Positions 24,400 through 48,336 of a stretch of 64,000 bases of DNA are shown in pieces (position 1 is the stretch's first letter; each line of letters opens with the position of its first letter). The stretch spans positions 1 through 64,000 of the forward strand of contig JAGXFH010000062.1 of the NCBI GenBank assembly GCA_024637315.1, given 5' to 3'. Both the position numbers and the translations under genes were made by a program. The notes below the pieces were generated by a model, which was not told the DNA's origin, did not search any database, and saw only the letters and a list, made by a program, of their open reading frames with translations. Source of the DNA: Brevirhabdus sp. (GTDB lineage Bacteria; Pseudomonadota; Alphaproteobacteria; Rhodobacterales; Rhodobacteraceae).

Positions 24400-24402
24400 G
24401 GC

Positions 24403-28583: not shown

Positions 28584-28640
28584 TATCCCCTCACCGGTTC
28601 TGCCGAAAAACCATCATCCGTGAGGTGGTAGTATGAAAGA

Positions 28641-28652
28641 ATTCGTACGAAT
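28641..28652. promoter_or_regulatory. Palindrome ATTCGTACGAAT upstream of the LacI gene, candidate operator
   Basis: Perfect 12-bp palindrome 58 nt upstream of the regulator start. Confidence 0.45.
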
Positions 28653-28677
28653 ATGGAACCGTCATGAGACGCCGTTG

Positions 28678-29940
28678 CTACTGGCTCATCGCAAGTCCAT
28701 AGGGCAAGTCCTTTGCGGCATTGCGATACCATCTGATGATCCTCGTCCTTTCGTCCGGTTCCATGAAAGACACGTTCGCCGGCGGCATGGCGTTGCTGAC
28801 GCCGGCTTGCAGGTAAATTTGCCGCGCTGCCCGGGCGATGTCTGCCGGCGTCTCCAGCAGAATGTTTTTCGGCGCACGATGGATGCCTTCCCAGCCCGGA
28901 TCACGCGCATGGCACATAGCGCAACGTCCAGGCACGATGTTCATGACTTCATCAAACCCGTCCGCGCTGGCGTACACCTGCTCGACCCTCGTCAACTCCC
29001 GCGCCTCCGACTCCTCGTAGCTGTCGTGCATCAACGGCGCGGTCGAGAGCCACATGACGCAGATGAACAGGACCACAGTCACAAGCCACGTCCAGGTCGG
29101 GTTGCCGCTGCGGGCATGCAGCGCGTTGAAGTAGTGCCGGATGGTCACGCCCATCAAGAACACCAGCGCCGCGATCAGCCAGTTGTATTCGGTGGCGAAA
29201 GCCAGCGGATAGTGGTTTGCCAACATCAGGAACAGAACCGGCAAGGTCAGGTAGTTGTTGTGGGTCGATCTGAGCTTGGCGATCTTGCCGTATTTCGGAT
29301 CCGGGGTCCGGCCCTCCTGCAAATCCTTAACGACAATGCGCTGGTTCGGCATGATGATGAAAAACACGTTTGCTGTCATGATTGTCGCCGTGAACGCGCC
29401 AAGATGCAGAAGCGCCGCCCGGCCGGTGAAAATCTGGTTGTAACCCCAGGCCATCGCGACCAGCAGAACGAACAACAGCACCATCAGAAAGGTTGGCCGC
29501 TCGCCCAGTCCCGATTTGCAGAGGAAATCGTAGACAAGCCAGCCGATCGACAGCGAAGCCGCCGAGATCAGAATGCCCTGCCAGATCGCCAGATCGGCCT
29601 TTTGCGAGTCGATCAGGTAAAGTTCCGCACCGGCCCAGTAGACGATCATCAGCAAGGCGGCCCCTGACAGCCACGTCGCATAGCTTTCCCATTTGAACCA
29701 TGTCAGGTGCTCGGGCATCTGTTCGGGCGCGACCAGATACTTCTGGATGTGATAAAAGCCGCCTCCGTGAACTTGCCACTCTTCGCCATGCGCGCCGGCC
29801 GGCAGATGCGGCACTTTGCGCAGCCCCAGATCGAGCGCCACGAAATAGAACGAAGAGCCGATCCAAGCGATTGCGGTGATGACGTGCAGCCAGCGAACGG
29901 CAAAGGACAGCCAATCCCACATGATAGCCAAATCTTGCAT
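28678..29940 (-). CDS. puuD: Urate hydroxylase, membrane-bound with C-terminal cytochrome c
   Basis: Start trimmed to MQDLAIMWDWLSFAVRWLHVITAIAWIGSSFYFVALD; C-terminal CxxCH 'GRCAMCHARDPGW'. Confidence 0.92.
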   Translation of the reverse strand: MQDLAIMWDWLSFAVRWLHVITAIAWIGSSFYFVALDLGLRKVPHLPAGAHGEEWQVHGGGFYHIQKYLVAPEQMPEHLTWFKWESYATWLSGAALLMIVYWAGAELYLIDSQKADLAIWQGILISAASLSIGWLVYDFLCKSGLGERPTFLMVLLFVLLVAMAWGYNQIFTGRAALLHLGAFTATIMTANVFFIIMPNQRIVVKDLQEGRTPDPKYGKIAKLRSTHNNYLTLPVLFLMLANHYPLAFATEYNWLIAALVFLMGVTIRHYFNALHARSGNPTWTWLVTVVLFICVMWLSTAPLMHDSYEESEARELTRVEQVYASADGFDEVMNIVPGRCAMCHARDPGWEGIHRAPKNILLETPADIARAARQIYLQAGVSNAMPPANVSFMEPDERTRIIRWYRNAAKDLPYGLAMSQ

Positions 29941-30074: not shown

Positions 30075-30428
30075 TCAGCTGCCGCGATAGGTTGAAAAGC
30101 TGAACGGCGACAGCAGCAGCGGCACATGATAGTGAGTGTCTTCCGACATCCCGAACCGTAGCGGGATGATGTCAAGGAACCGCGGATTCTCCTTCGGAAC
30201 GCCGGCAGAATCCAGATAGTCGCCCGCATGGAACAGCAGTTCATACGTTCCGCGCTCAAATTCCGACGACGGCAGCACCTGCTCGTCGGTTCGACCATCA
30301 TCATTCGTGACCAGGGATCGCAGCAGGTCGCGGCGGTCGCCGACGATCCGGAAGAGTTCGATCTTCATTCCACTGGCTGGCCGCCCCCATGCTGTATCAA
30401 GAACATGCGTTGTCAAAAAACCGGCCAT
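30075..30428 (-). CDS. uraH: 5-hydroxyisourate hydrolase
   Basis: '[21 protein letters not shown]', C-terminal '[19 protein letters not shown]' signature. Confidence 0.95.
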
Positions 30429-30579
30429 GACATCCCTCTTCAATTGATTTCCCGCGAAACATGCCCGCTTTGCCGTCTGATTGTCACTGCGGTGTTTCCA
30501 TTATCTCTTTCAAGAACATTGCGAAAGTCATCTGTATTTCTTTGTTCTACAACTCAATCCAATGAAAGGAGATCCCTTG

Positions 30580-31998
30580 GTGACTCGCTACCTTCGAGAC
30601 ATGCGTGGCTATGGTGCCACCCCGCCAGACCCGAACTGGCCCAACGCGGCAAAGATCGCCGTGCAATTCGTCATCAATTACGAAGAAGGCGGCGAAAACT
30701 GCGTGTTGCACGATGATGCGGCGTCCGAGGCCTTTCTGTCGGAAATCGTGGGTGCTGCGGCGTGGCCCGGACAGCGACACTGGAACATGGAGTCGATCTA
30801 TGAGTACGGTGCTCGGGCCGGATTCTGGCGGCTGCACCAATTGTTCACTGAATACGACATTCCGGCGACGGTCTTTGGCGTTGCCACTGCCCTGGCCCGC
30901 AGCCCCGAACAGGTCCGCGCGATGCAGTCCGCCGGCTGGGAGGTTGCCAGCCACGGACTGAAGTGGATCGAGTACAAGGACTTCGCGCCCGAAGATGAGG
31001 CGGCCCATATGGCCGAAGCCATTCGCCTGCACACCGAGGTGACGGGCGAGCCTCCGCATGGCTGGTATACCGGGCGGTGCTCGGTCAATACCGTCGCCCT
31101 GGCCGCCGAGGCGGGCGAGTTCGACTATGTGGCCGACAGCTATGCCGATGATCTGCCATACTGGGTGCGCATCGGGTCGCGCGATCAGTTAATCGTGCCC
31201 TACACGCTGGATTGCAACGACATGCGCTTTGCCACGCCTCAGGGTTTCAATTCGGGCGATCAGTTCTTCAGCTACTTGAAGGACAGCTTCGACGCACTCT
31301 ATGCCGAGGGCGAGCGCGGTCAGGCCAAGATGCTGTCGGTCGGCCTGCATTGCCGGCTGATCGGGCGTCCGGGCCGCGTGATGGCCCTTCGCCGCTTCAT
31401 GGATTATGCCAAGTCGCATGCGGATGTCTGGTTCGCCCGCAGACTGGATATTGCGCGGCACTGGCAGAAACACCATCCGCCGGCTCGGTTTGATCGGCCA
31501 TCGGAAATGGAAAAGGCAACGTTCATCGCAGCCTATGGCGGCATCTTCGAGCATTCGCCGTGGATCGCAGAGCGCGCATGGGCGCTGGAACTGAGCCCTG
31601 CGCATGACAGCTCCACCGGCCTGCATAACGCCCTGTGCCGGATCTTCCGTTCCGCCAGCGAAGAAGAGCGACTGGGCGTCCTTGCAGCACACCCGGATCT
31701 GGCCGGAAAGCTGGCCCAGGCCAGTCAACTGACCGCAGAGTCCACGTCAGAGCAGGCCGGCGCCGGTCTTGATGCACTGACAGATGACGAACGCAAGATG
31801 TTCACGGACCTGAATGACGCCTACACTGCCAAGCACGGCTTTCCATTCATCATTGCGGTTCGTGACAATACCAAGACCTCGATCGAGGCCGCGTTCAGAC
31901 GGCGGCTCGACAATGATCGCGCCAGCGAATTCGCCGAAGCCTGCCGTCAGGTCGAGCGGATCGCCGAGTTGCGGTTAAAGGATTTGTTGCCCAGATGA
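30580..31998 (+). CDS. puuE: Allantoinase PuuE fused to OHCU decarboxylase UraD
   Basis: N-terminal polysaccharide-deacetylase-like 'YGATPPDPNWPNAAKIAVQFVINYEEGGE'; C-terminal UraD-like 'FEHSPWIAERAW...LAAHPDLAGKLA...NDAYTAKHGFPFIIAVRDN'; GTG start with AAGGAG upstream. Confidence 0.9.
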   Translation: MTRYLRDMRGYGATPPDPNWPNAAKIAVQFVINYEEGGENCVLHDDAASEAFLSEIVGAAAWPGQRHWNMESIYEYGARAGFWRLHQLFTEYDIPATVFGVATALARSPEQVRAMQSAGWEVASHGLKWIEYKDFAPEDEAAHMAEAIRLHTEVTGEPPHGWYTGRCSVNTVALAAEAGEFDYVADSYADDLPYWVRIGSRDQLIVPYTLDCNDMRFATPQGFNSGDQFFSYLKDSFDALYAEGERGQAKMLSVGLHCRLIGRPGRVMALRRFMDYAKSHADVWFARRLDIARHWQKHHPPARFDRPSEMEKATFIAAYGGIFEHSPWIAERAWALELSPAHDSSTGLHNALCRIFRSASEEERLGVLAAHPDLAGKLAQASQLTAESTSEQAGAGLDALTDDERKMFTDLNDAYTAKHGFPFIIAVRDNTKTSIEAAFRRRLDNDRASEFAEACRQVERIAELRLKDLLPR

Positions 31999-32522
31999 CC
32001 CGGCCTTTGCAGACCTCACCGCTGACCGCCGAAGCCTTTGCACCCTACGGAGATCTGCTGGACGTCGCCGGGGCGCCGGACAAGCTGATCAATCAGGGCA
32101 TGTGCGGACGTTACCATGACCGCGCGTCTTTGGATTTTGCCGATGGACGCGCCGGAATCAGCCTGTTCGATGCCAAGGCACGCATGCTGCCCCACATCGT
32201 GGACATGGTCGAGCGGCACCCGGATGGCAGCCAGGCTTTCATTCCGGTCAGCGGTGTTCCGTATCTCGTGGTGGTCGCTGACGATGACAACGGCACACCT
32301 GCCAATCTCCGGGCTTTCGTCGCAAGACCGGGTCAATCGGTCAATCTGCATCGCGGCGTCTGGCACGGCGTGCTCACCCCACTGAACGCTCCCGGCCAGT
32401 TCGTCGTCATCGACAGGATCGGCGCCGGCGAAAATCTTGAGGAACACTGGTTCGATGATCCCTATGTCGTCGAAACAATTGACGACAAGGCCATCGAAGA
32501 CGTGGCCGAACAAGAGCACTGA
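31995..32522 (+). CDS. allA: Ureidoglycolate lyase
   Basis: 'LTAEAFAPYGDLLD', 'MVERHPDGSQAFIPV', 'VNLHRGVWHGVLTPL'; overlaps the upstream stop by 4 nt. Confidence 0.92.
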   Translation: MTRPLQTSPLTAEAFAPYGDLLDVAGAPDKLINQGMCGRYHDRASLDFADGRAGISLFDAKARMLPHIVDMVERHPDGSQAFIPVSGVPYLVVVADDDNGTPANLRAFVARPGQSVNLHRGVWHGVLTPLNAPGQFVVIDRIGAGENLEEHWFDDPYVVETIDDKAIEDVAEQEH

Positions 32523-32561: not shown

Positions 32562-33974
32562 ATGGCAGACACTTCTCTCGGGACGGCGGAGCAACTTCGC
32601 GATCCCGATTACACACCACCGATGGCCAAGGCGATCCCCTTGGGCATCCAGCACGTGCTGGCGATGTTCGTTTCGAACGTGACACCGGCGATCATTGTCG
32701 CTGGCGCCGCCGGATTCGGGTTCGGATCGAACTCTCCGGATTTCCCGGAACTGATCTATATGATCCAGATGGCGATGGTGTTCGCGGGCGTCGCGACACT
32801 TTTCCAGACCATCGGCGTGGGTCCGATGGGTGCCCGCCTTCCGATCGTTCAAGGAACGTCATTCGCATTTCTGCCGATCATGATCCCGCTTGTCGCGGGC
32901 AAGGGCGTCGATGCGATGGCCGGCCTGATGGGTGGCGTTCTGATCGGCGGCATCTTTCAGGGCTTCCTTGGCCTGATCATCAACAAGATCCGCTTCGCCT
33001 TGCCGCCGCTTGTGACCGGACTGATTGTCACGATGATCGGCCTGGCGCTGGTCCAGGTCGGCATTCAGTACGCCGCCGGCGGCGTGCCGGCGATCGGAAC
33101 CGAGGAATATGGCAGCCTGCAGAACTGGTTCGTCGCGCTCGTGGTCATTGCCGTGACGCTGGGGCTGAAATTCTTCACCCGCGGCATGTTGTCGATCTCG
33201 GCGGTACTGATCGGGCTGCTGGCGGGCTACGGCGTTGCCCTGATGATGGGGATGGTCAGCTTTGCCAATGTCGGGCGCGCAGCCAGCTTTGCGCTGCCAG
33301 ATCCGCTGCATTTCGGACTGGAATTCCAGTTTGCGGCGATCGTCGGCTTCTGCTTCATGGCCATCGTCTCGGCGATCGAGACAGTCGGCGATGTTTCCGG
33401 GATCACCAAGGGCGGTGCCGGGCGCGAGGCCACTTCGGAAGAGTTGTCCGGGGCCACATATGCGGACGGCTTCGGCTCGGCCGTTGCCGGACTGTTCGGT
33501 GGCCTGCCGAACACCTCGTTCAGCCAGAATGTCGGTCTGATCGCGATGACCGGCGTGATGAGCCGGCATGTCGTGACCTGTGGCGCGATCTTCCTGATCA
33601 TCGCCGGTCTGGTCCCGAAAGTCGGCGCGATCATCTCGACAGTGCCGATCGAAGTGTTGGGCGGCGGCGTCATCGTCATGTTCGGCATGGTCGTGGCGGC
33701 CGGTATCTCGATGCTGTCGGACGTCGACTGGAATCGCCGCAACATGGTGATCTTCGCGATCGCCCTTTCGGTCGGCCTCGGTCTCCAGCTTGAACCGGGC
33801 GCTGTGCAGCACCTGCCAGACACGCTGCGCGTGCTGATGACATCGGGTCTTTTGCCCGCTGCGGTCATTGCCATCGTGTTGAACCTGGTCCTACCCAAAG
33901 AAATCGCCGCCGAATCCACCGAGGAAGTCGCCGGCGGCATGTCCGGACATGGCGCAGGTAAACTTCCCCACTGA
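32562..33974 (+). CDS. NCS2-family purine/urate permease
   Basis: 'LGIQHVLAMFVSNVTPAIIVAGAAGF', 'TSFSQNVGLIAMTGVMSRHVV' NCS2 motifs. Confidence 0.9.
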   Translation: MADTSLGTAEQLRDPDYTPPMAKAIPLGIQHVLAMFVSNVTPAIIVAGAAGFGFGSNSPDFPELIYMIQMAMVFAGVATLFQTIGVGPMGARLPIVQGTSFAFLPIMIPLVAGKGVDAMAGLMGGVLIGGIFQGFLGLIINKIRFALPPLVTGLIVTMIGLALVQVGIQYAAGGVPAIGTEEYGSLQNWFVALVVIAVTLGLKFFTRGMLSISAVLIGLLAGYGVALMMGMVSFANVGRAASFALPDPLHFGLEFQFAAIVGFCFMAIVSAIETVGDVSGITKGGAGREATSEELSGATYADGFGSAVAGLFGGLPNTSFSQNVGLIAMTGVMSRHVVTCGAIFLIIAGLVPKVGAIISTVPIEVLGGGVIVMFGMVVAAGISMLSDVDWNRRNMVIFAIALSVGLGLQLEPGAVQHLPDTLRVLMTSGLLPAAVIAIVLNLVLPKEIAAESTEEVAGGMSGHGAGKLPH

Positions 33975-34023: not shown

Positions 34024-34193
34024 TCAGATACCCGCTCGCAAATGCTTGCCAAGCATTGCATAAAGAGTTGAAGGTGCGAGAAAGAAGATCCCGCATCCGC
34101 CGAAACTGCCTGCCGATCAAGCGCGTAGCCCATGCGACGTGTTCGACGACAGGCCAACCACCACGCCAAGACACTCTGCCTGGAGAGATCAGA

Positions 34194-36851
34194 ATGACCG
34201 ACAACAGCCCCGATATCGACCCGGTTGAAAGCCAGGAATGGCAAGACGCGATCGAGGACGTGATCCAGCGGGATGGAGCCAATCGTGCGCATTATCTTCT
34301 GGACAAGGCGGTGCAGCAGGCTCGGGCAGCGGGGGCCAACCTGCCCTTTTCCGCAACCACTCCATATCAGAACACGATCCCCGCGGATGACGAACTGGAA
34401 ATCCCCGGTGACCAGGAGATGGAATGGCGCATCCGAACCATCAATCGCTGGAACGCAATGGCGATGGTCGTGCGGCGCAACAAAGAAAGCAGCGAATATG
34501 GCGGGCATATCGCGTCTTTCGCGTCTTCCGCGGTGCTCTACGATATCGGTCTGAACCACTTCTGGCGCGCAAAGTCCGCAATTCACGGTGGCGATCTGGT
34601 ATTTTTTCAGGGCCATGCGATCCCCGGCATCTACGCCCGGTCCTTCATGGAGGGCAGGATCAGCCAGGAACAGCTTGAATCGTTCCGCTCCGAGGTCGAT
34701 GGCGGTGGGTTGTCCTCTTATCCGCATCCTTGGCTGATGCCGGATTACTGGCAGTTCCCGACCGTCTCGATGGGCCTTGGGCCGCTGATGGCGATCTATC
34801 AGGCTCGCTTCATGAAATACATGCACAGCCGCGGACTGATCGACATGGGGGACCGCAAGGTCTGGGTGTTCCTCGGTGACGGAGAGATGGACGAACCCGA
34901 AAGCCTTGGGGCGATCAGCCTGGCGGCGCGCGAGGGGCTCGACAACCTGATCTTCGTGATCAACTGCAACCTGCAGCGTCTGGATGGGCCGGTGCGCGGG
35001 AACTCGAAGATCGTGCAGGAGCTGGAGGGCGAGTTCCGGGGCGGCGGATGGAACGTGATCAAGCTGCTGTGGGGCAAGGGCTGGGACGAATTGTTGGAAA
35101 ACGACACCAGCGGCAAGCTGCGCCAGCTGATGGATGAAACCGTCGATGGCGACTACCAGACCTTCAAATCGAAGGACGGAGCCTATATCCGAGAGCATTT
35201 CTTCGGCAAGTACCCCGAAACCGCTGCCTTGGTCGAGAACTGGACCGACGACCAGATATGGGCGCTGCGCCGCGGCGGGCATGACCCCAAGAAGGTCTAC
35301 ACCGCTTACAAGCGGGCGACCGAAACCAACGGCAAGCCGACTTGTCTGCTGATCAAGACGGTCAAGGGCTATGGCATGGGCACAGGCGGCGAAGGGATGA
35401 ACACCTCGCACCAGCAAAAGAAGCTGGCCGAGGATCAGCTGCGCGCGATGCGCGACCGCTTCAAGATCCCTGTCAGCGACGAGGATTTGCCGAAAGCGCC
35501 TTTCGTGACGCTCAACAATGCGCAAAAGGCCTATCTGGGCGACCGGCGTCGTGCCCTTGGCGGCGAATTCCCTAAGCGGCATTGGCGCGATGCCCCCAAG
35601 CTGGCGATTCCACCGCTCGAGACGTTCAAGGCACAGCTGGACAGCACGGGCGACCGCGAGATCTCGACGACGATGGCATTCGTTCGCATCCTGACCACGC
35701 TGCTGCGCGACAAGAACCTGGGAAAGAACGTAGTGCCGATCGTGCCCGACGAAAGCCGGACCTTCGGGATGGAAGGCCTGTTCCGTTCGGTCGGCATCTA
35801 CAATCCGAAGGGGCAGAAATACACCCCGCAAGACGCCGACCAGATGATGTTCTACAAGGAAAGCGAGACCGGTCAGGTCCTGCAGGAAGGCATCAACGAA
35901 GCCGGCGCCATGGCCGACTGGATCGCGGCGGCCACATCCTATGCCACGCATGGCGTGCCGATGATCCCGTTCTTCATCTACTATTCGATGTTCGGCTTCC
36001 AGCGGATCGGCGATCTGGCCTGGGCGGCAGGCGACAGCCGCGCGCGCGGCTTCATGCTGGGCGGTACCGCCGGGCGAACGACGCTGAATGGCGAAGGTCT
36101 GCAGCATGAGGACGGACACAGCCACATCCTTGCCAGCACGATCCCGAACTGCATCACCTATGATCCGACATTCCAATACGAGGTTGCCGTGATCCTGCAT
36201 CATGGGCTGGAACGGATGTTTCGGGATCAGGAGGATGTGTATTTCTACCTGACGCTGATGAATGAAAACTACGCCCACCCGGCAATGCCGATGGGATCGG
36301 AAGAGGGCATCATCAAGGGCCTCTACCGCCTGACCAAGACCGCCAAACCTGGCAAGAAGCATGTCAACCTGATGGGGTCCGGCACGATACTGATGCAGGC
36401 GATCAAGGCGGCAGACATGCTCAAGGCCGACTTCGGCGTCACCTCGGACATCTGGTCCGCCACATCGCTGAATGAACTGGCCCGAGACGGCCAGGATGCG
36501 GTTCGCCACAACAGGTTGAACCCGCTCACCAAGCCGCAGGTGCCCTACGTGACGCAACTGCTTGAAGGGGCGAAGGGTCCGGTGATCGCCGCCACCGATT
36601 ATATGAAGAACTATGCCGAACAGATCCGCGCCTTCGTGCCGCAGCCCTTCACTGTTCTCGGGACGGACGGGTTCGGACGCTCCGACAGCCGGGTCAATCT
36701 GCGCCGTTTCTTCGAGGTCGACGCGAACCACATCGCGGCAGCTGCGATGGCCGAGCTCTACAAGACCGGCGCGGTGGCCGAGAAGGACATGCGCGCAGCG
36801 CTCAAGAAGTACGAAATCGACGGCGGCAAGCCGAACCCGCGTCTGGTCTGA
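34194..36851 (+). CDS. aceE: Pyruvate dehydrogenase E1, homodimeric type
   Basis: 886 aa; 'GGHIASFASSAVLYDIGLNHFWRA', 'VFLGDGEMDEPESLGAISLAAREGLDNLIFVINCNLQRLDGPVRGN'. Confidence 0.95.
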   Translation: MTDNSPDIDPVESQEWQDAIEDVIQRDGANRAHYLLDKAVQQARAAGANLPFSATTPYQNTIPADDELEIPGDQEMEWRIRTINRWNAMAMVVRRNKESSEYGGHIASFASSAVLYDIGLNHFWRAKSAIHGGDLVFFQGHAIPGIYARSFMEGRISQEQLESFRSEVDGGGLSSYPHPWLMPDYWQFPTVSMGLGPLMAIYQARFMKYMHSRGLIDMGDRKVWVFLGDGEMDEPESLGAISLAAREGLDNLIFVINCNLQRLDGPVRGNSKIVQELEGEFRGGGWNVIKLLWGKGWDELLENDTSGKLRQLMDETVDGDYQTFKSKDGAYIREHFFGKYPETAALVENWTDDQIWALRRGGHDPKKVYTAYKRATETNGKPTCLLIKTVKGYGMGTGGEGMNTSHQQKKLAEDQLRAMRDRFKIPVSDEDLPKAPFVTLNNAQKAYLGDRRRALGGEFPKRHWRDAPKLAIPPLETFKAQLDSTGDREISTTMAFVRILTTLLRDKNLGKNVVPIVPDESRTFGMEGLFRSVGIYNPKGQKYTPQDADQMMFYKESETGQVLQEGINEAGAMADWIAAATSYATHGVPMIPFFIYYSMFGFQRIGDLAWAAGDSRARGFMLGGTAGRTTLNGEGLQHEDGHSHILASTIPNCITYDPTFQYEVAVILHHGLERMFRDQEDVYFYLTLMNENYAHPAMPMGSEEGIIKGLYRLTKTAKPGKKHVNLMGSGTILMQAIKAADMLKADFGVTSDIWSATSLNELARDGQDAVRHNRLNPLTKPQVPYVTQLLEGAKGPVIAATDYMKNYAEQIRAFVPQPFTVLGTDGFGRSDSRVNLRRFFEVDANHIAAAAMAELYKTGAVAEKDMRAALKKYEIDGGKPNPRLV

Positions 36852-36877
36852 CCGGTGGCAGTGAGGAGATTGAAGAG

Positions 36878-38164
36878 ATGACAACAGAAGTCAAAGTTCC
36901 CGATATCGGCGATTTTTCGGATGTGCCGGTGATCAACGTCCTCGTCAGCGTCGGCGATGTCGTGGCGCTTGAAGACCCGCTGATCGAACTGGAAAGCGAC
37001 AAGGCCACGTTGGAAGTGCCCTCAAGCGCCGCAGGCAAGATCACCGAGATCAAGGTGTCCGAGGGCGACAAGGTGTCCGAAGGCAGTCTGATCCTTCTGC
37101 TCGACGCCGACGCAGACTCTGCCGCTGCGGATCCGGAGACGGACAAGCCAGAGCCGGAAACCTCCGCCGCACCCGCACCCGCGGATTCACAGCAATCCAC
37201 CCCGACCCCGCCGCCGGTTCAAGAGGGTCCTCCGGCGGTTACCGATAGCGGATTCGGCAAGACCCATGCATCGCCGTCGGTCCGCGCCTTTGCCCGAACA
37301 GTCGGTGTCGACCTCAGCAAGGTGAACGGCACAGGCCGCAAGGGCCGTATCCTGCGCGAGGATGTCATGAAGGCGCTCAAGTCGACCGCAGCGCCCGCCG
37401 CGGCGGGCGGTGCCGTGCAGGGCGGCATGGGTATCCCGCCGATCCCGACTGTCGATTTCAGCAAGTTCGGCCCGGTCGAAGATGTCGAGATGTCGCGCAT
37501 CAAGAAGCTGTCCGGCCCGGCGCTGCATCGCAGCTGGCTGAACATCCCGCATGTGACGCACCAGGAAGAGGCTGATATCACGGAACTGGATCAATACCGC
37601 AAGGAACTTGATACCGACGCCAAGACAGACGGTTACCGGGTGACCCTGTTGTCCTTCATCATCAAGGCCAGCGTTTCGGCACTCAAGACCCATTGGGAAT
37701 TCAACTCTTCTCTGCATCCTGACGGCGACAAGCTGATCCGAAAATCCTATTACAATATCGGTTTCGCCGCCGACACACCGAATGGCCTGATGGTTCCGGT
37801 GATCAAGGATGCCGACCGCAAGGGGATCATCGACATTTCCAAGGAACTGGGAGAGCTTTCAGCCAAGGCCCGCGACGGCAAGCTGAAGGGCGACGAGATG
37901 GCTGGCGCCACCTTCACGATCTCATCGCTTGGAGGCATCGGCGGAACCGGGTTCACGCCGATCGTCAACGCCCCCGAAGTTGCCATACTGGGCCTCACCC
38001 GGTCGAAGATGGCCCCGGTCTGGGACGGCGAGGCGTTCCAGCCTCGCAACATGCTGCCGATGAGCCTGTCCTACGACCACCGCGCAATCGACGGCGCGCT
38101 GGCGGCGCGCTTTGCGGCAACGCTGAAACACCTGCTCGGCGACGTGCGCCGGCTGATGCTGTAA
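36878..38164 (+). CDS. aceF: Dihydrolipoyllysine acetyltransferase (E2)
   Basis: Single N-terminal lipoyl domain 'ELESDKATLEVPS', E3-binding 'ASPSVRAFARTVGVDLSKVNGTGRKGRILREDV', C-terminal 'SYDHRAIDGALAARF'. Confidence 0.95.
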   Translation: MTTEVKVPDIGDFSDVPVINVLVSVGDVVALEDPLIELESDKATLEVPSSAAGKITEIKVSEGDKVSEGSLILLLDADADSAAADPETDKPEPETSAAPAPADSQQSTPTPPPVQEGPPAVTDSGFGKTHASPSVRAFARTVGVDLSKVNGTGRKGRILREDVMKALKSTAAPAAAGGAVQGGMGIPPIPTVDFSKFGPVEDVEMSRIKKLSGPALHRSWLNIPHVTHQEEADITELDQYRKELDTDAKTDGYRVTLLSFIIKASVSALKTHWEFNSSLHPDGDKLIRKSYYNIGFAADTPNGLMVPVIKDADRKGIIDISKELGELSAKARDGKLKGDEMAGATFTISSLGGIGGTGFTPIVNAPEVAILGLTRSKMAPVWDGEAFQPRNMLPMSLSYDHRAIDGALAARFAATLKHLLGDVRRLML

Positions 38165-38177
38165 GGGGGGGCCGCAG

Positions 38178-39920
38178 ATGGAAGTCAAAGTTCCCGATAT
38201 CGGAGATTTCACCGACGTACCGGTGATCTCGGTGCTGGTCTCGAGCGGCGACAAGGTCGCAACGGAAGACCCGCTGATCGAACTCGAATCCGACAAGGCG
38301 ACGATGGAGGTTCCGTCGCCGGCCGCAGGCGTCGTGAAAGACATCAAGGTCAAGGAAGGCGACAAGGTCTCTGAAGGCTCGATCATTCTCGTGCTCGAAG
38401 GCGCTGAGGCGGCCGATGCAGCCAAGGATAGCGCCCCTGCGGCCGCGGCCGCAGAAGCGCCGAAAACCGTCGCCGCGACCGGCAAAGCCAGTGGTCCCGG
38501 CGATATTCACGGCGAAGTCGTGGTCCTCGGCTCGGGCCCCGGCGGCTATTCTGCAGCGTTCCGCGCGGCCGATCTTGGCAAGAAGGTGATCCTGATCGAG
38601 AAATACGACGTTCTCGGCGGCGTCTGCCTCAATGTCGGGTGCATCCCGTCGAAGGCGCTTCTGCACGCGGCCAAGGTGATCACCGAGGCCGAAGAGATGG
38701 AAGAACACGGCATCAAGTTTGCCAAACCCAAGGTCGACGTCAAGGCGTTGGAGAGTTGGAAATCCTCGGTCGTGAAGCAGTTGACCGGCGGGCTTTCGGG
38801 CTTGGCCAAGGGTCGCAAGGTACAGGTGGTGACGGGCTACGGCAGGTTCACCGGCCCGAACATGATCGAAGTCGAGGGCAAAGACGGCAAGCAAACCGTC
38901 AGCTTCGACCAATGCATCATCGCGGCAGGTTCCGAACCCGTCACGCTGCCCTTCATTCCGCATGACGACAAGCGGGTCATCGACTCCACCGGTGCGCTGG
39001 AACTCGACGGCATTCCAAAACGCCTGCTCGTTCTCGGCGGCGGCATCATCGGGCTGGAAATGGCCTGCGTCTACGACGCGCTCGGATCGAAGATCACCGT
39101 CGTCGAACTGATGGACCAGATTATCCCCGGCGCCGACAAGGACATCGTCAAGCCGCTGCACAAGCGGATCGAGGGACGCTACGAGAAGATACTGCTGAAG
39201 ACCAAGGTTACGGCTGTCGAGGCGCAAAAGTCGGGCCTCAAGGTCACGTTCGAGGATGACAACGGCGAAACCTCGACCGACACATTCGACAAGGTGCTGG
39301 TCGCGGTCGGTCGCAGGCCCAACGGCAAGCTGATCAATGCCGAAGCCGCAGGCGTCGCCGTCGATGAGCGCGGCTTCATAGCCGTCGACAGCCAGCAGCG
39401 CACCGGCGTCGCCCACATCTTCGCCATCGGTGACGTCGTGGGCCAGCCGATGCTCGCCCACAAGGCAGTGCATGAAGGCAAAGTCGCGGCAGAGGTTTGC
39501 GCGGGCCAGAACCGGCACTTCGACGCCCAGGTTATTCCCTCGGTCGCCTATACCGACCCCGAAGTCGCTTGGGTGGGCGTGACGGAAAACCAGGCCAAGG
39601 CGCAAGGCTTGAAGGTCGGCAAAGGCGTCTTTCCCTGGGCCGCTTCGGGGCGCTCTCTGGCTTTGGGTCGGTCGGAAGGCATCACCAAGCTGATCTTCGA
39701 TGAGGCGGACGACCGGGTGATCGGCGCGGGCATCGTCGGCCCGAATGCGGGCGATCTGGTGGCCGAAGTAGCTCTTGCCATCGAGATGGGGGCCGACGCG
39801 GTCGATCTCGGCCACACCATCCACCCGCACCCGACGCTCTCGGAAACAGTCAATTTCGCCGCGGAAATGTTCGAAGGCACAATCACCGACCTGATCCCGC
39901 CGAAGCGCAAGAAGCACTGA
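38178..39920 (+). CDS. lpdA: Dihydrolipoyl dehydrogenase (E3) with N-terminal lipoyl domain
   Basis: Lipoyl domain 'ELESDKATMEVPSPAAG', FAD 'VVLGSGPGGYSAAFRAADLG', redox 'GGVCLNVGCIPSKALLH'. Confidence 0.95.
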   Translation: MEVKVPDIGDFTDVPVISVLVSSGDKVATEDPLIELESDKATMEVPSPAAGVVKDIKVKEGDKVSEGSIILVLEGAEAADAAKDSAPAAAAAEAPKTVAATGKASGPGDIHGEVVVLGSGPGGYSAAFRAADLGKKVILIEKYDVLGGVCLNVGCIPSKALLHAAKVITEAEEMEEHGIKFAKPKVDVKALESWKSSVVKQLTGGLSGLAKGRKVQVVTGYGRFTGPNMIEVEGKDGKQTVSFDQCIIAAGSEPVTLPFIPHDDKRVIDSTGALELDGIPKRLLVLGGGIIGLEMACVYDALGSKITVVELMDQIIPGADKDIVKPLHKRIEGRYEKILLKTKVTAVEAQKSGLKVTFEDDNGETSTDTFDKVLVAVGRRPNGKLINAEAAGVAVDERGFIAVDSQQRTGVAHIFAIGDVVGQPMLAHKAVHEGKVAAEVCAGQNRHFDAQVIPSVAYTDPEVAWVGVTENQAKAQGLKVGKGVFPWAASGRSLALGRSEGITKLIFDEADDRVIGAGIVGPNAGDLVAEVALAIEMGADAVDLGHTIHPHPTLSETVNFAAEMFEGTITDLIPPKRKKH

Positions 39921-39982
39921 ACCAGGGCGGCGGATCGCAAAAACCGCCAAACGCGCAAGTCCGCGCGTTTGGTTCCGATGCT

Positions 39983-40663
39983 CTAGCGACCTCCGGCAGT
40001 CGCAATGGCCTTGGCCATGTCGTCATATCCGCGCTGTTGTGCATGCTGCAAAGGCGTCACACCGTCCCGATCGGCAATTCCCGGATCGGCGCCGGCATCG
40101 AGCAACGCCTCGACCGTCGCCAGATGGTCGGGGCCGCCGTCGCCCAGCACAACCGCTTCGATCAGCGCCGTCCACCCCAGATTGTTGACATGGTCTAGCG
40201 GCGCTCCCCTCGCGATCAAACGGCGAACCACTTCGGCATGCCCCAGATGCGCTGCCGCGATCAGCGCGGTGCCGTCATACCGGCTGGTCACCAGATCCGC
40301 CCGGTTGCCCAGTTCCAGCGCGAGTGAAACCAGTTCGGGGTCGTTGGCGACAGCCGCGATCGTCAGGACGTCATAGGAGCCCTGCTCCAGCGCGTTCATG
40401 TCCGCGCCTGCTTCGGCGAGCGTCTTCAATACCGCGTCGTTAGAGGCGAAGGCCGCCACATGCGCCGGCGTTCGACCTGCCGGATCGCGTTCATCCACAT
40501 CAGCGCCATCAGTCAACAGCGCTTGAAGTGTAACCAAATCTCCTGAATGGGCCGCCCGATGCAGACCCTGATAGACAGCAATCTGCTGCGCCGAAGGTGC
40601 ATCCTGCGCCATTGCGGACACGCCCAGCCAAAAGCCAACAAAGCCAATCGTCAGCCTGAACAT
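39983..40663 (-). CDS. Ankyrin-repeat protein with signal peptide
   Basis: 'MFRLTIGFVGFWLGVSAMAQDA'; repeats 'DLVTLQALLTDGADVDERDPAGRTPAHVAAF', 'GHAEVVRRLIARGAPLDHVNNLGWTALIEAV'. Confidence 0.88.
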   Translation of the reverse strand: MFRLTIGFVGFWLGVSAMAQDAPSAQQIAVYQGLHRAAHSGDLVTLQALLTDGADVDERDPAGRTPAHVAAFASNDAVLKTLAEAGADMNALEQGSYDVLTIAAVANDPELVSLALELGNRADLVTSRYDGTALIAAAHLGHAEVVRRLIARGAPLDHVNNLGWTALIEAVVLGDGGPDHLATVEALLDAGADPGIADRDGVTPLQHAQQRGYDDMAKAIATAGGR

Positions 40664-40699
40664 TCCGCTATCCCCTGATTGCAGCGCTTCGGGACGAGT

Positions 40700-40797: not shown

Positions 40798-41760
40798 TCA
40801 GAAATCGACATAGGTCGCAACGCCCTTGCTGACCGCCAGATCAACCGCCGCCGCCGCGACCGCGAGATCCTGCAGCCCAACCCCGGTGCCGTCGAAAAGG
40901 GTGATCTCGTCGTCGGACTTTCGGCCTGGATGGGTGCCTTCGATGACCTCGCCGAGGGCAGTGATGTCGCTTTCCTTGATCAGCCCTTGAGCGATGGCGT
41001 GCTGCGCTTCACCCAGGGTAATGGATTGCGCGACCTCGTCGGTGAAGATGCTTGCGCGGGCCAGCAGGGCCGGCTCGACCTCTTGCTTGCCGATCGTGTC
41101 GGTCCCCATGCAGGCCAGATGCGTGCCGGCACGGATATGTGCATCCATCAGGGATGCTGCGGGCGAGGAGGTGATGGTGATAATTACATCTGACTGCGCG
41201 CCGAGACCTTCGAGGCTGACCGCCTCGAAGGGTAGCCCCAGCTCCGTGGCAACCTTGCCGAGAGTCGGCAACATATCGGGGTGCAGGTTCCACGCCACGA
41301 CCCTGTCGAAGTTGCGAACCTTCGCAGCCGCGCGCAACTGAAACGCCGCCTGATGACCCGCACCGACCATGCCCAGCACTTTCGCACCCTTGCGCGCCAG
41401 CCGGTCGATCGAAATCGCAGAGGCGGCCGCGGTCCGCAGCGCGGTCAGAAGATTGCCACCGACCATCGCGGTGGGGCGTCCGGTTTCGGGATCGAAGAGA
41501 TAGACTGTCGACTGGTGGTTGGTGATGCCCTTATCGGCATTGCCTGGAAAATACCCGCCCGCCTTGACGCCCAGATTGGCACCTGCGCGGTCGAGGCCGG
41601 ATTTGAAACCGTATTGCCGCCCCTCGCCCAATGCCTCGCGGACCACCGGGAAGTTATAGGCATCCCCGCGCGCCATCGACGCAAAGACGGCCTCGACCGC
41701 CTTGAAAGCAGCGTCGTCGGTGATCAGGCTGGCGATCTCTTTTTCGGGGACAACGTACAT
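40798..41760 (-). CDS. bhcD: Iminosuccinate reductase (ornithine cyclodeaminase/mu-crystallin family)
   Basis: 'MVGAGHQAAFQLRAAAKVRNFDRVVAW' Rossmann; last gene of a bhcABCD-ordered operon. Confidence 0.85.
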   Translation of the reverse strand: MYVVPEKEIASLITDDAAFKAVEAVFASMARGDAYNFPVVREALGEGRQYGFKSGLDRAGANLGVKAGGYFPGNADKGITNHQSTVYLFDPETGRPTAMVGGNLLTALRTAAASAISIDRLARKGAKVLGMVGAGHQAAFQLRAAAKVRNFDRVVAWNLHPDMLPTLGKVATELGLPFEAVSLEGLGAQSDVIITITSSPAASLMDAHIRAGTHLACMGTDTIGKQEVEPALLARASIFTDEVAQSITLGEAQHAIAQGLIKESDITALGEVIEGTHPGRKSDDEITLFDGTGVGLQDLAVAAAAVDLAVSKGVATYVDF

Positions 41761-41777
41761 CGGAGGGGCCTTTCGCA

Positions 41778-41806
41778 AAAAAAGGGGCCGGGACTTGCCC
41801 GGCCCG
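41778..41806 (-). terminator. Intrinsic terminator between bhcC and bhcD
   Basis: On the minus strand GGGCCGGG-CAAGT-CCCGGCCC then CTTTTTTT. Confidence 0.85.
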
Positions 41807-41825
41807 AAGGTAAGGGAGGATCGTC

Positions 41826-42989
41826 TCAGTACGCCTTGCCGCGAGCCGAAACCGGCCAGACGGTCTCGACCTTGCCGTTCCGGACTCCGACATACCAATC
41901 GTGCACGTTGCAGGTCGGGTCGCAGTGGCCAGGCACCAGCCGCAACTTGTCATTGATCTCGAGGACGCCATTCGGATCGTCGACAACGCCATGTTCGTCC
42001 GAGCATTTGATGTATTTGACATCGTCGCGGCCATAGACGAAGGGCAGGCCGCTGTCGACCGACTGCGCCTTGAGGCCTGCATCGACAATCGCAAGGTGCG
42101 GCTTGGCATGGCTCATCACCGAGGTCAGGATGAAGAGCGCATTTTCCCACTCTCCCTGGTCGATCCGGTTGCCGTCCTTGTCGTGGATACGCCCGTAATC
42201 AGCATCCATGAAAGCGTAAGAGCCGCACTGAAGTTCATTGTAGACGCCCGAATTGCTCTCGAAATAGTAGCTTCCCGTGCCACCGCCAGAGACAAGCTCC
42301 GGCTCCAGACCGACCTTTTTCAGCCCCTCTACCGCGTCCTTCACCTGGGCGATGGCCGCATCGAGTTTCGCCTTGCGGTCCTCAAACTTGTCGATGTGCT
42401 GCATCGCACCCTGGTAGGCTTGGATGCCAGTGAACTTGAGGTTCGGCGCGACGTCGATGGCTTTGGCGATCTCGACCACAGCCTCGGTTGTGGTCACCCC
42501 GCAACGGCCAGCCCCGCAGTCGATCTCGACAAAGCATTCAAGCGTCGTGCCATGCTTCTGAGCGGACGCAGATAGGTCCGCAACGTTCGCTACATCATCG
42601 ACACAGACGATGATCCGCGAGCCAAACTTCGGCAGCCGCGCCAGACGATCGATCTTGGCCGGGTCTCGGACCTGGTTCGAGATCAGCACATCCTTGATGC
42701 CGCCCCGCACGAAGACCTCTGCCTCGCTGACCTTCTGACAGCATACGCCGACAGCGCCTCCAAGACTTTCCTGAAGCTTCTGCACGTCCACCGACTTGTG
42801 CATCTTGCCGTGCGACCGGTGGCGCATGCCATGCGCCTTCGCGTAGTCGCCCATCTTCTTGATGTTGCGCTCCAGCGCGTCGAGGTCGAGGATCAGGCAC
42901 GGCGTCTGGATGTCCTTCTCGTCCATTCCAGGTTTGGCCGGAATGTCGTAGCCGACGTCGAGCGCGTTGATGTTCACGGGTGCGTTCAT
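41826..42989 (-). CDS. bhcC: Beta-hydroxyaspartate aldolase (D-threonine aldolase-like, PLP)
   Basis: 'DIQTPCLILDLDALERNIKKMGDYAKAHGMRHRSHGKMHKS', 'VSGGGTGSYYFESNSGVYNELQCGSYAFMDADYG'. Confidence 0.88.
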   Translation of the reverse strand: MNAPVNINALDVGYDIPAKPGMDEKDIQTPCLILDLDALERNIKKMGDYAKAHGMRHRSHGKMHKSVDVQKLQESLGGAVGVCCQKVSEAEVFVRGGIKDVLISNQVRDPAKIDRLARLPKFGSRIIVCVDDVANVADLSASAQKHGTTLECFVEIDCGAGRCGVTTTEAVVEIAKAIDVAPNLKFTGIQAYQGAMQHIDKFEDRKAKLDAAIAQVKDAVEGLKKVGLEPELVSGGGTGSYYFESNSGVYNELQCGSYAFMDADYGRIHDKDGNRIDQGEWENALFILTSVMSHAKPHLAIVDAGLKAQSVDSGLPFVYGRDDVKYIKCSDEHGVVDDPNGVLEINDKLRLVPGHCDPTCNVHDWYVGVRNGKVETVWPVSARGKAY

Positions 42990-43004
42990 GGGAGCCTCCT
43001 TGGC

Positions 43005-43970
43005 TTACATCCAGGGCAGTTTGTCGAGGTCGACATTGCCGCCGGTGATGATGACGCCGACGCGCTTGCCGGCAAAGATGTCCTTGTTTTTCAGGATACA
43101 GGCAAGCGGCACGGCGCTCGACGGCTCTATCACGATCTTCATGCGCTTCCAGATCAGCTTCATCGCTTCGATGATCTCGTCTTCGGAGGCGGTGAAGATG
43201 TCAGCGACGTGGTTCTGCACGAAATGCCAAGTAAGGTCTTTCAACGGCACTTTCAAACCATCCGCAACGGTTTCCGGCGCGTCATCGGCGATGATATGAC
43301 CGGCCTTGAAACTGCGATAGGCATCGTCGGCCTGCTCAGGTTCGGCGGCATAGATCTTCACCTGCGGCCCAAGATTGGACAGCGTCAGACAGGTGCCCGA
43401 CACCATGCCGCCACCACCGATCGGCGCGATCACCGAGTCCAGCCCCTCGACCTGTTCGATCAGTTCCTTCGAACATGTTCCCTGACCGGCGATGACACGC
43501 GGATCGTTGTATGGATGCACGAACTCCGCCCCGGTTTCTGCGACAACCTCGGCAAAGACCGCTTCGCGGCTCGTGGTCGACGGCTCGCACTCGACGACAC
43601 GCCCGCCGTAGCCTTTCACGGCATCCTTCTTGGCTTGGGGTGCGGTCCGCGGCATCACAACCGTGCATGGAATCCCGCGCCGACCAGCAGCGTAGGAAAG
43701 GCAGGTGCCGTGATTACCAGAGGAATGCGTCGCCACGCCCTTGGCGGCCTGCTCATCGGTCAGTCCAAAGACCGCATTCGAGGCCCCTCGCGCCTTGAAC
43801 GCCCCCGCCTTTTGAAGGTTCTCGCATTTGAAGAACAGACTGGCGCCCATCAGGTCGTCGATGAACCGAGAGGTCAGAACCGGCGTACGGTGAATGTAGG
43901 GTTTGACACGTTCATGCGCGATCAGCATGTCGGCGAGGGTCGGGATTTCCATGACTTCGCTATCCTTCAT
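43005..43970 (-). CDS. bhcB: Erythro-beta-hydroxyaspartate dehydratase (Ser/Thr dehydratase fold-type II PLP)
   Basis: 'FFKCENLQKAGAFKARGASNAV', 'THSSGNHGTCLSYAA', 'APIGGGGMVSGTCL'; TAATG coupling to bhcA. Confidence 0.88.
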   Translation of the reverse strand: MKDSEVMEIPTLADMLIAHERVKPYIHRTPVLTSRFIDDLMGASLFFKCENLQKAGAFKARGASNAVFGLTDEQAAKGVATHSSGNHGTCLSYAAGRRGIPCTVVMPRTAPQAKKDAVKGYGGRVVECEPSTTSREAVFAEVVAETGAEFVHPYNDPRVIAGQGTCSKELIEQVEGLDSVIAPIGGGGMVSGTCLTLSNLGPQVKIYAAEPEQADDAYRSFKAGHIIADDAPETVADGLKVPLKDLTWHFVQNHVADIFTASEDEIIEAMKLIWKRMKIVIEPSSAVPLACILKNKDIFAGKRVGVIITGGNVDLDKLPWM

Positions 43971-45160
43971 TACGCAGCCGCTTTCATCGGCTGGGCAACC
44001 GTTGCGCGGAAATGGTCCTGCGCAGAGGCAACGCCAGAGCCAAGCTTGATCGGCAGGCCCAGATCGACCATCACCATCTCGGCGGTTGCCAGACCCGACA
44101 AGGTCATGACATCTGTCAAGCTGCCCAGATGTCCGATCCGAAATACCTTCCCTGCGACCTCGCCAAGCCCGACACCAAAGGCGACCCCGTAAGCCTCTGC
44201 GGCGCGCGTCACGATGGCTGTCGCGTTGAATCCGACGGGGGTTAGGATCGCACTGACGGTATCAGAATACACCTCGGGCGTCTCGGCGCACAGCCGCAGC
44301 CCCCATGCGCTCACCGCCGCCCGGACACCGTCCGCGATTCGCTTATGGCGGGCAAAGACATTGTCCAGTCCTTCGGCCAGCAACATGTCACTCGCCATCT
44401 TGAGGCCATTCAGCAAGCCGACGGCCGGCGTGTAGGGGTAGGCATTGTTGGCATACCCCTTCGCCATGTCGCGGACGTCAAAGAATGTGCGCGGTAACTT
44501 CGCGGTCTCGAGCGCGGCCATTGCACGCGGGCTGAACCCGACAATCGCAAGGCCAGCGGGCAGCATGAAGCCCTTCTGGCTGCCGGTCACGGCGATATCG
44601 ACGCCCCAATCGTCCATCCGGAAATCCATCGATCCGATCGAGCTGACGCCATCGACGAACAGCATCGCCGGGTGTTTGGCCGCGTCGAGCGCGCGCCTCA
44701 CGGCTGCGATATCAGACCTGACACCGGTCGCGGTTTCATTATGCGTGGCCAGTACGACCTTTATCTCGTGGGCCGTGTCGGCGGTCAGGATTGCTTCATA
44801 CCGGTCTGCGGGAATCGCGGCGCCCCAAGCGGCCTCGACGATCTCGACATTCAGATCATGGCGCTGGCACATATCGATCCAGCGATGACTGAACATTCCG
44901 TTCCGGGCCGCCAGCACCTTGTCACCGGGCGACAGAGTATTGGTTAACGCGGTTTCCCAGCCGCCGGTGCCGGTCGACGGGAAGACGAAAATCTCGGCTG
45001 TTTCGCTTTTCAGCACCTTCTTCACACCCGCCAGCGCGGGGTGCAGGATCTGGCCGAACAGCGGCGAGCGATGATCCAACGTCGGCATGTCCACGGCCTT
45101 GCGCAAAACTTCGGGCATGTTCGTGGGACCAGGGATGAAAACGGGGTTCTGGAAGCTCAT
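43970..45160 (-). CDS. bhcA: Aspartate-glyoxylate aminotransferase (class V, PLP)
   Basis: 'FQNPVFIPGPTNMPEVLRKAVDMPTLDHRSPLF', 'FPSTGTGGWETALTNTLSPGDKVL', 'AVTGSQKGFMLPAGLAIVGFS'. Confidence 0.88.
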   Translation of the reverse strand: MSFQNPVFIPGPTNMPEVLRKAVDMPTLDHRSPLFGQILHPALAGVKKVLKSETAEIFVFPSTGTGGWETALTNTLSPGDKVLAARNGMFSHRWIDMCQRHDLNVEIVEAAWGAAIPADRYEAILTADTAHEIKVVLATHNETATGVRSDIAAVRRALDAAKHPAMLFVDGVSSIGSMDFRMDDWGVDIAVTGSQKGFMLPAGLAIVGFSPRAMAALETAKLPRTFFDVRDMAKGYANNAYPYTPAVGLLNGLKMASDMLLAEGLDNVFARHKRIADGVRAAVSAWGLRLCAETPEVYSDTVSAILTPVGFNATAIVTRAAEAYGVAFGVGLGEVAGKVFRIGHLGSLTDVMTLSGLATAEMVMVDLGLPIKLGSGVASAQDHFRATVAQPMKAAA

Positions 45161-45222
45161 GATTTGCCCTCCTGTGGCGATTGCCGTCACTCTAGTCCAA
45201 GCGTCGCATTTTCCCAATTTTT

Positions 45223-45239
45223 TTGAAAAATTATTTCAA
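45223..45239. promoter_or_regulatory. Candidate IclR-type operator TTGAAA-AATTA-TTTCAA
   Basis: Perfect 6-bp inverted arms with 5-nt AT spacer in the bhcA/bhcR divergent promoter region. Confidence 0.55.
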
Positions 45240-45357
45240 TATAGAGATTCCCTTGAAAAGGGTATAATTTACAATGGTTTGTATTTTTTCATTAGCCAGA
45301 AGCAATTTTCGCCACTATGCAGAAAGACCTGATCGTTTTCCGGATCGGGGAAAGAAA

Positions 45358-46173
45358 ATGCAGCCACCCGCCCGCCGCAAGGGCCGCCCCAAGGGTTTCG
45401 ACAGCACCGATTCCCAGACGACAATCCAGTCGCTTGACCGGGCGCTAAACGTCCTTGTGGCTCTGGCCTCGGGCAACGGCATGACACTGACCGACATTTC
45501 GACCGTACTGGATCAGTCTCCCGCCACGATGTACCGCGTCCTGACGACGCTCGCATCACGGGAATTTGTCGAAATCGACCCGCAAAGGCAGGAATGGCAT
45601 ATCGGACCGATGGCGTTCCAGCTCGGCTCCGCCTTCTTGCGGCGCAGCGGGGTGATCGAACGCAGCCGTCCGGTGATGCGCGACCTGACGGCGGCGACGG
45701 GAGAGACATCAAACCTCGGAATCGAAAAGGACGGCGACGTCATGTTCGTCAGCCAGATCGAGACGCACGAATCGATCCGCGCGTTCTTTCCGCCCGGAAC
45801 GCTTTCGCCGATGCACGCCTCTGGCATCGGCAAGGCCCTGCTGAGCATGTTCGAAGAGGATCGGCTCGCGCGGTTCCTGCGTGACCACGACTTGCAGCGT
45901 TTCACCGACAAGACCATCAGCGACCCTGCCCGACTGGTCGAAGACCTGCGGCTCATCCGCGCCCGCGGCTACGCCGTCGATGACGAGGAAAAGACCACCG
46001 GCATGCGCTGCGTCGCCGCCGCAATCATCAATGTTCACGGCGAAGCTGTAGCCGGGATCTCGGTCTCTGGCCCCACCCATCGGATGACCGAAGGCGAGAT
46101 CGGCCGTATCGGCGATCTGGTCAGGGACGCCGCCGCGAACGTATCACGCGGGCTTGGCGCCCCGGACGCCTGA
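45358..46173 (+). CDS. bhcR: IclR-family regulator, divergent to bhcABCD
   Basis: 'TIQSLDRALNVLVALASGNGMTLTDISTVLDQSPATMYRVLTTLASREFVEID' HTH, IclR effector domain. Confidence 0.85.
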   Translation: MQPPARRKGRPKGFDSTDSQTTIQSLDRALNVLVALASGNGMTLTDISTVLDQSPATMYRVLTTLASREFVEIDPQRQEWHIGPMAFQLGSAFLRRSGVIERSRPVMRDLTAATGETSNLGIEKDGDVMFVSQIETHESIRAFFPPGTLSPMHASGIGKALLSMFEEDRLARFLRDHDLQRFTDKTISDPARLVEDLRLIRARGYAVDDEEKTTGMRCVAAAIINVHGEAVAGISVSGPTHRMTEGEIGRIGDLVRDAAANVSRGLGAPDA

Positions 46174-47043
46174 TCACCCTGCCGCAGCCTTGACCCGAGC
46201 GGCGTTCTTGGACAACTCCGGTATCGCCAGCGCCATATGCCGGTTTACATCCTTGTAAAGCAGGTAGCGGAATGGGCCGGGACCACCTGCATAGCAAGCC
46301 TGCGGGCAGAAGGCGCGCAGCCACATGTAGTCGCCCGCCTCCACCTCGACCCAATCCTGATTGAGCCGGTAGACTGCCTTGCCCTCCAGCACGTAAAGCC
46401 CGTGCTCCATCACATGGGTCTCGGCGAAGGGGATGACCCCTCCGGGCTGGAAGGTGACGACCGTAACATGCATGTCGTGGCGCAGATCGGCGGGGTCGAC
46501 GAAGCGCGTGGTCGCCCACGCACCGTCCGTGTCCGGCATCGGCGTCGGTGCGATGTCGTTCTCATTGGTGACGAAGGCGTCAGGCAGCGCGAGCCCTTCG
46601 ACAGCCTGATAGGCCTTGCGGATCCAGTGGAACCGGGCCGGAACCTTGCCAGTGTTGCGAAGCTGCCAGTCGGTATCCGGCGGCAGATAGGCATAGCCGC
46701 CCGTCCTCATGTCGTGCGCCTCACCGCCGATTGTAAGGCTGATGCCGCCCCCGACCACGAACAGAACCGCCTCGACCCCCGAATCAGTTTCGGGCCGGTC
46801 ACTGCCGCCGCCCGGTTGCACCTCGGCGATATATTGCGAAAAGGTTTCGGCAAAGCCGGAAAGCGGTCGCGACAGCACCCAGAACCGGGCGCCGTCCCAG
46901 AAAGGCAGAAAGCTTATCACGATATCGCTGAATGTGCCTTTCGGGATAACCGCATAGGCTTCGGTGAACATGGCGCGGTCGGTCAGAAGCTGCGTCTGCG
47001 GCGGCAAGCCACCTTCGGGAAAGTAGTAGGGGCGCGTGGACAT
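46174..47043 (-). CDS. allE: (S)-ureidoglycine aminohydrolase (bicupin)
   Basis: 'PFAETHVMEHGLYVLEGKAVYRLNQDWVEVEAGDYMWLRAFCPQACYAGGPGPFRYLLYKDVNRH'. Confidence 0.9.
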   Translation of the reverse strand: MSTRPYYFPEGGLPPQTQLLTDRAMFTEAYAVIPKGTFSDIVISFLPFWDGARFWVLSRPLSGFAETFSQYIAEVQPGGGSDRPETDSGVEAVLFVVGGGISLTIGGEAHDMRTGGYAYLPPDTDWQLRNTGKVPARFHWIRKAYQAVEGLALPDAFVTNENDIAPTPMPDTDGAWATTRFVDPADLRHDMHVTVVTFQPGGVIPFAETHVMEHGLYVLEGKAVYRLNQDWVEVEAGDYMWLRAFCPQACYAGGPGPFRYLLYKDVNRHMALAIPELSKNAARVKAAAG

Positions 47044-47324
47044 CGGATTATGCTTTCTGCAGGAATTCGTACCTGTCCACCAAATCCTGCCCGGCACCGC
47101 ATTCCAACTCTTTTCCCGACTTGAATCACCTGAAGGATTGATCGGAAAAAACTGAAAATGGGTGCTCCGCGCAAACTGCCCGGTGTCCGGGCAACCACCG
47201 ATCGCCGAAGTGTGCCGTTTTGCTCGCTGCTGCTGACAGGCGTTGAGATTGCCGTCAACTACTGGAATAGTGACTTTCAGATCATCGGGCGCACCCGCCT
47301 TTGATCGTCAAAGTGGAGGACTAC

Positions 47325-48278: not shown

Positions 48279-48336
48279 GTATCAGCCAGCGGGCATTCGC
48301 AACGGATGCCCGCAACTGCCGTCCGGGGAGGGAAAG

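Follow-up and report, generated by a model that had tools for sequence, protein, structure and literature searches.

A beta-hydroxyaspartate cycle operon set among urate-to-glyoxylate genes in an alphaproteobacterium

We analyzed a 64,000-nucleotide stretch of DNA (hereafter, "the window") from an alphaproteobacterium of the Rhodobacter/Roseobacter/Paracoccus group and find that it almost certainly carries the beta-hydroxyaspartate (BHA) cycle as one operon, bhcABCD, together with a divergent gene for the operon's own activator, bhcR. The operon itself is of an already known kind and is well supported. The new point is its setting: bhc lies among genes for the route from urate to glyoxylate, and many related bacteria show the same pairing. 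Work on the BHA cycle has treated it as a route for glycolate; in the genomes examined here, it adjoins purine and ureide genes and not glycolate oxidase. We put at roughly one in two the probability that, in many Alphaproteobacteria including the present one and Paracoccus, the cycle forms the carbon-conserving end of purine/allantoin degradation, taking purine-derived glyoxylate to oxaloacetate or aspartate, and that this is why bhc has repeatedly come to lie beside ureide genes. Should bhc prove both inducible by purine carbon and necessary for its use, such bacteria would conserve the carbon of purines, beyond their nitrogen alone.

The bhcABCD operon

An earlier note had placed a BHA-cycle operon at 40798-46173, and all five genes are found there in the order and on the strands it gave. 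Each protein matches its own NCBIfam equivalog (BhcA-D, BhcR) along almost its entire length, with a score over the curated cut-off; generic enzyme models score far under theirs. On the minus strand, bhcA (43970..45160; L-aspartate--glyoxylate aminotransferase, 396 aa; NF045640, 752 bits, cut-off 650) comes first, followed by bhcB (43005..43970; beta-hydroxyaspartate dehydratase, 321 aa; NF045641, 605.9 bits, cut-off 550), bhcC (41826..42989; D-3-hydroxyaspartate aldolase, 387 aa; NF045642, 780 bits, cut-off 690), and bhcD (40798..41760; iminosuccinate reductase, 320 aa; NF045643, 558.5 bits, cut-off 500). By coordinates and strands, these genes form a single operon in the order A-B-C-D, with bhcR divergent from it. 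An AGGAGG site precedes bhcA, the ATG of bhcB overlaps the bhcA stop by 1 base, and the other gaps within the operon are 15 and 65 bases. All four frames are intact, as is that of the plus-strand bhcR; the starts of bhcD (41760) and bhcA (45160) are internal to longer mechanically derived frames.

The four enzymes share superfamilies with widespread amino-acid enzymes, and the cluster could in principle be a chance gathering of a serine/alanine-glyoxylate aminotransferase, a threonine/serine dehydratase, a D-threonine aldolase, and an ornithine cyclodeaminase. The nearest PDB relatives of BhcA and BhcB are in fact a serine-glyoxylate aminotransferase and serine racemases, respectively, with no BhcA or BhcB structure among the matches listed. 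We nevertheless consider this reading highly improbable and dropped it on the model scores, as every specific Bhc model passed and no generic model did. The margins are wide: 752 bits for BhcA against its own model versus 174 for pyridoxamine-pyruvate transaminase, 606 versus 368 for threo-3-hydroxy-L-aspartate ammonia-lyase in the case of BhcB, and 558 versus 201 for alanine dehydrogenase in the case of BhcD. Thus, the genes first described as class-V aminotransferase, dehydratase, aldolase, and cyclodeaminase-like are identified as bhcA, bhcB, bhcC, and bhcD, and their best matches are Bhc-specific models rather than generic clades that exclude Bhc proteins. For BhcC, the top PDB match is 6qkb ("D-3-hydroxyaspartate aldolase"), aligned end-to-end over residues 1-387 with E=1.1e-230, compared with 1e-94 for D-threonine aldolases; for BhcD, it is 6rqa ("iminosuccinate reductase", E=6.8e-129), with 1omo as runner-up (2.8e-47). 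The present bhcC is the sole copy in the genome above the NF045642 cut-off. The genome also encodes far lower-scoring paralogues of BhcC (192 bits, L099:3813-4871, C63; probably of the D-threonine aldolase type) and of BhcB (238 bits, C32), and these are the likely generic enzymes. Finally, the assembly is not a matter of chance: among the 80 best related loci, 64 contain the bhcABCD block, and bhcR accompanies it in 60. The earlier note's remark that standard annotators easily miss the pathway is outdated, because the NCBI models of June 2026 name all five genes; the purine genes nearby were no part of that note.

The gene order with its divergent regulator is, as had been proposed, that of the BHA-cycle genes of Paracoccus denitrificans (Schada von Borzyskowski et al. 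2019, cited via PMC11323563). The two systems are alike in their five proteins and their order, the IclR-type divergent regulator, a palindrome upstream of bhcA, and the presence of glcDEF elsewhere in the genome. They differ in their surroundings: here, a ureidoglycine aminohydrolase gene lies on one side of bhc, and a pyruvate dehydrogenase (PDH) operon stands between its opposite end and the urate-to-glyoxylate set. By analogy with the P. denitrificans work, the four proteins would have the activities for which they are named.

The reaction sequence of the BHA cycle, from BhcC through BhcB and BhcD to BhcA, is established. In the present organism, BhcC would condense glyoxylate with glycine to beta-hydroxyaspartate, BhcB would dehydrate this to iminosuccinate, and BhcD would reduce the latter to L-aspartate. 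BhcA would then pass the amino group of L-aspartate to a second glyoxylate, regenerating glycine and releasing oxaloacetate, so that two glyoxylate would yield one C4 acid (oxaloacetate) with no loss of CO2.

BhcR and its candidate operator

The divergent IclR-type gene had been taken for the regulator of the operon, and it does prove to be bhcR (45358..46173, plus strand; 271 aa from the ATG at 45358), scoring 415.4 bits against NF045644 (cut-off 350) and only 184 against the IclR model. The start is most likely 45358 rather than 45274, since, in the 45274 frame, the BhcR model begins to match only at residue 32, and the ATG at 45358 has a ribosome-binding-like stretch, GGGGAAAG, in front of it. 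The effector pocket (143S, 146A, 154S, 160G, 161I, 212D, 220M, 239S, 241S) shares eight of nine residues with P. denitrificans BhcR (PMC11323563, Table 1), the sole difference being S for T at 143. It is of the BhcR type, lacking the pyruvate methyl patch and carrying Ile161, and it keeps the altered patch of A146, S154, and M220. In P. denitrificans, BhcR senses glyoxylate and is required for bhc expression (PMC11323563); by analogy, the present BhcR would act in the same way, responding to glyoxylate and binding a conserved palindrome upstream of bhcA.

We propose as the likely BhcR operator the palindrome TTTTGAAAAATTATTTCAATA at 45221..45241. Its far end is ~80 bp ahead of the ATG of bhcA, and it shares bases with a weak promoter-like match for that gene. 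Across 100 bhcR-bhcA intergenic regions compared, the motif could be aligned in all 100, with the consensus TTTTGAAAAANTTTTTCAAAA and a near-constant spacing to the bhcA start (~80 bp); the exact TGAAA-N5-TTTCA core is present in 54 of them versus 0.2 in shuffled sequence. A potential palindromic site has also been noted upstream of P. denitrificans bhcA, with its letters given in a figure only (PMC11323563). Allowing one mismatch, the palindrome occurs once in the window and once in the 3.87-Mb genome. This genome scan gave no BhcR operator near the purine genes, so that shared regulation of bhc and purine genes is without support, and co-regulation of the purine genes or glcDEF by BhcR was rejected on the same single-copy result. 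Any regulatory link between bhc and the purine genes would run via glyoxylate itself.

Purine and ureide genes around bhc

Immediately beyond bhcR, and convergent with it, lies a cupin gene for ureidoglycine aminohydrolase (46174..47043, minus strand; NF008373, 530 bits, cut-off 445). On the far side of bhcD are the genes for a membrane-type urate oxidase, PuuD (28678..29940, minus strand; PF06181, 453.6 bits), the hydroxyisourate hydrolase UraH (30075..30443, minus strand; TIGR02962, 119.4 bits, cut-off 87.45; also PF00576), and the allantoinase PuuE fused to an OHCU decarboxylase (30481..31998, plus strand; TIGR03212, 527 bits, cut-off 424.6; TIGR03164, 213 bits, cut-off 96). The TIGR03212 match runs from residue 37, and the true start of the fusion is probably further inside the listed frame. 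They are followed on the plus strand by the gene for ureidoglycolate lyase AllA, which releases glyoxylate and urea (31995..32522; NF002952, 278.8 bits, cut-off 260), and that for an NCS2-type xanthine/nucleobase permease (32562..33974; TIGR03173, 427.8 bits, cut-off 414). PuuD, UraH, the PuuE and OHCU decarboxylase activities, ureidoglycine aminohydrolase, and AllA are thus all represented in the flanks and together would make up a route from urate to glyoxylate, the allantoate step being uncertain. For that step, the cupin at 46174-47043 also matches a model named "bifunctional allantoicase/(S)-ureidoglycine aminohydrolase" (NF040771, 505.7 bits, cut-off 350), the one AllC-like gene is weak, and TIGR02961 matched nothing in any sequence searched, so that its silence here is no evidence of absence.

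Two open reading frames in this region were set aside. A plus-strand frame at 30228-30716, considered as a uric-acid gene, has no domain, the true genes being those on the minus strand at 28678-29940 and 30075-30443; another, at 28633-29667, runs antisense to PuuD, and the matches it gave were PuuD.

Between bhcD and the permease gene stand the PDH genes aceE-aceF-lpd (34056..39920, plus strand; TIGR00759, TIGR01348, and TIGR01350, all above cut-off) and an ankyrin-repeat gene, the whole block covering 34056-40666. A PDH operon at this junction is absent from the relatives compared, where bhcD and the permease gene are directly adjacent.

Linkage in relatives and the source of glyoxylate

We examined the linkage of bhc to purine genes in two sets that were assembled independently of linkage. 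One takes a single genome per genus of the family, 151 in all, of which 63 have BhcB above cut-off. In 23 of these 63, bhc and the allantoinase gene puuE are no more than 15 kb apart, a count that contig breaks can only lower; as a control, a BhcB paralogue was set against puuE in the same way, and none of 83 cases came within 15 kb (Fisher p ~6e-10, uncorrected for shared ancestry). The other set holds the 80 best named relatives, picked by BhcB similarity alone, and 59 of their loci have full flanks. At least two purine genes occur within ~10 kb of bhc in 26 of the 59, in at least five arrangements. A Rhodobacterales arrangement has the genes directly adjacent in the order ureidoglycine aminohydrolase, bhcR, bhcABCD, xanthine permease, allA, puuE, uraH, puuD. 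In Paracoccus, genes for a xanthine permease, an 8-oxoguanine deaminase-like protein, UraH, and PuuD follow bhcD on the same strand (in Paracoccus alkanivorans, at L021:13136-17809). The Rhizobium tropici group has puuE-allA upstream of bhcR, Aureimonas has the entire ureide set upstream of bhcR, and Methylobacterium brachythecii has the ureide set after bhcD.

That the arrangements differ and are found in different families suggests repeated selection for the bhc-purine neighbourhood, with the counts inflated by shared ancestry and by block transfer within families. A BhcABC tree holds 21 linkage changes; since its rows were partly chosen by linkage and gain cannot be distinguished from loss, we prefer the unselected counts from the 151 genomes and 80 relatives. 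In the open papers searched, we found no earlier report of the bhc-purine link, which the 2019 Nature paper may nonetheless mention; PMC11323563 makes only the general remark that glyoxylate can derive from purines.

The glyoxylate metabolism of the rest of the genome (3.87 Mb, completeness 99.9%) was searched as well. The genes glcDEF are present on another contig, GlcF scoring 463.5 bits against a cut-off of 333; the GlcD and GlcE families give the best matches for their genes, yet remain under cut-off. Malate synthase G is present in the genome. Neither isocitrate lyase nor glyoxylate carboligase (Gcl) was detected there, which leaves the BHA cycle and malate synthase as the two visible exits for glyoxylate. 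The best "Gcl" match, at 393 bits, is acetolactate synthase, scoring 1137 bits against the acetolactate synthase model; matches of about this strength occur in nearly all genomes of the family, and none of the 151 has a carboligase above cut-off.

Glyoxylate for the cycle could come from glycolate, through the distant glcDEF, and from purine/allantoin breakdown by the flanking genes. We think it rather more likely than not that the latter is an important source besides glycolate, with purine-derived glyoxylate a presumed physiological substrate of the cycle. The opposing reading, that the cycle is essentially for glycolate only and that the purine-gene neighbourhood is functionally meaningless, is less likely in our judgment and still has considerable weight. 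In P. denitrificans, the cycle has its demonstrated role in glycolate supply (PMC11323563); this genome has GlcDEF, its purine genes are without a BhcR operator, and the PDH operon separates them from bhc. Many purine-degrading genomes do without bhc altogether: 83 of the 88 sampled genomes that lack it carry puuE, which shows that purines can be degraded without the BHA cycle. Against a glycolate-only role stand the gene positions. Within 15 kb of bhc, a purine or ureide gene is found in 23 genomes versus glcD in none (the two are never within 20 kb in the family sample, the smallest distance being 22 kb), and this holds for several arrangements in several families. In Paracoccus, the genes for the xanthine permease and a deaminase come directly after bhcD on the same strand.

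Such a coupling has parallels in known systems. In the gcl/allantoin regulon of Escherichia coli (AllR; glycerate pathway), ureidoglycolate lyase frees purine glyoxylate, and the carboligase route that follows loses CO2. The present genes resemble that regulon in the formation of purine-derived glyoxylate by ureidoglycolate lyase and in an IclR-family glyoxylate sensor; unlike in E. coli, no carboligase scores above cut-off here or in the 151 family genomes. For Pseudomonas aeruginosa, an allantoin-inducible glyoxylate pathway that makes pyruvate via another gene cluster is reported (PMC12694930). It couples purine catabolism to a dedicated route of glyoxylate assimilation; here, the coupled route would be the BHA cycle, leading to oxaloacetate rather than pyruvate.

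Several other gene groups are recognizable in the window. A TAXI-type TRAP transporter (binding protein and fused permease, 47301-50436) lies beside the ureidoglycine aminohydrolase gene and is not conserved near bhc in relatives. Myo-inositol catabolism genes (iolE-like, iolG, iolC, iolD, iolB), a sugar ABC transporter, and a LacI-type regulator occupy 12463-28583. An error-prone DNA polymerase gene, dnaE2, and an ImuB-like (IMS-domain) gene form a mutasome cassette at 50803-55643. At 58693-61361, a gene for an HWE/HisKA_2 histidine kinase overlaps that for an ECF-type sigma factor, an arrangement reminiscent of the alphaproteobacterial general stress response module.
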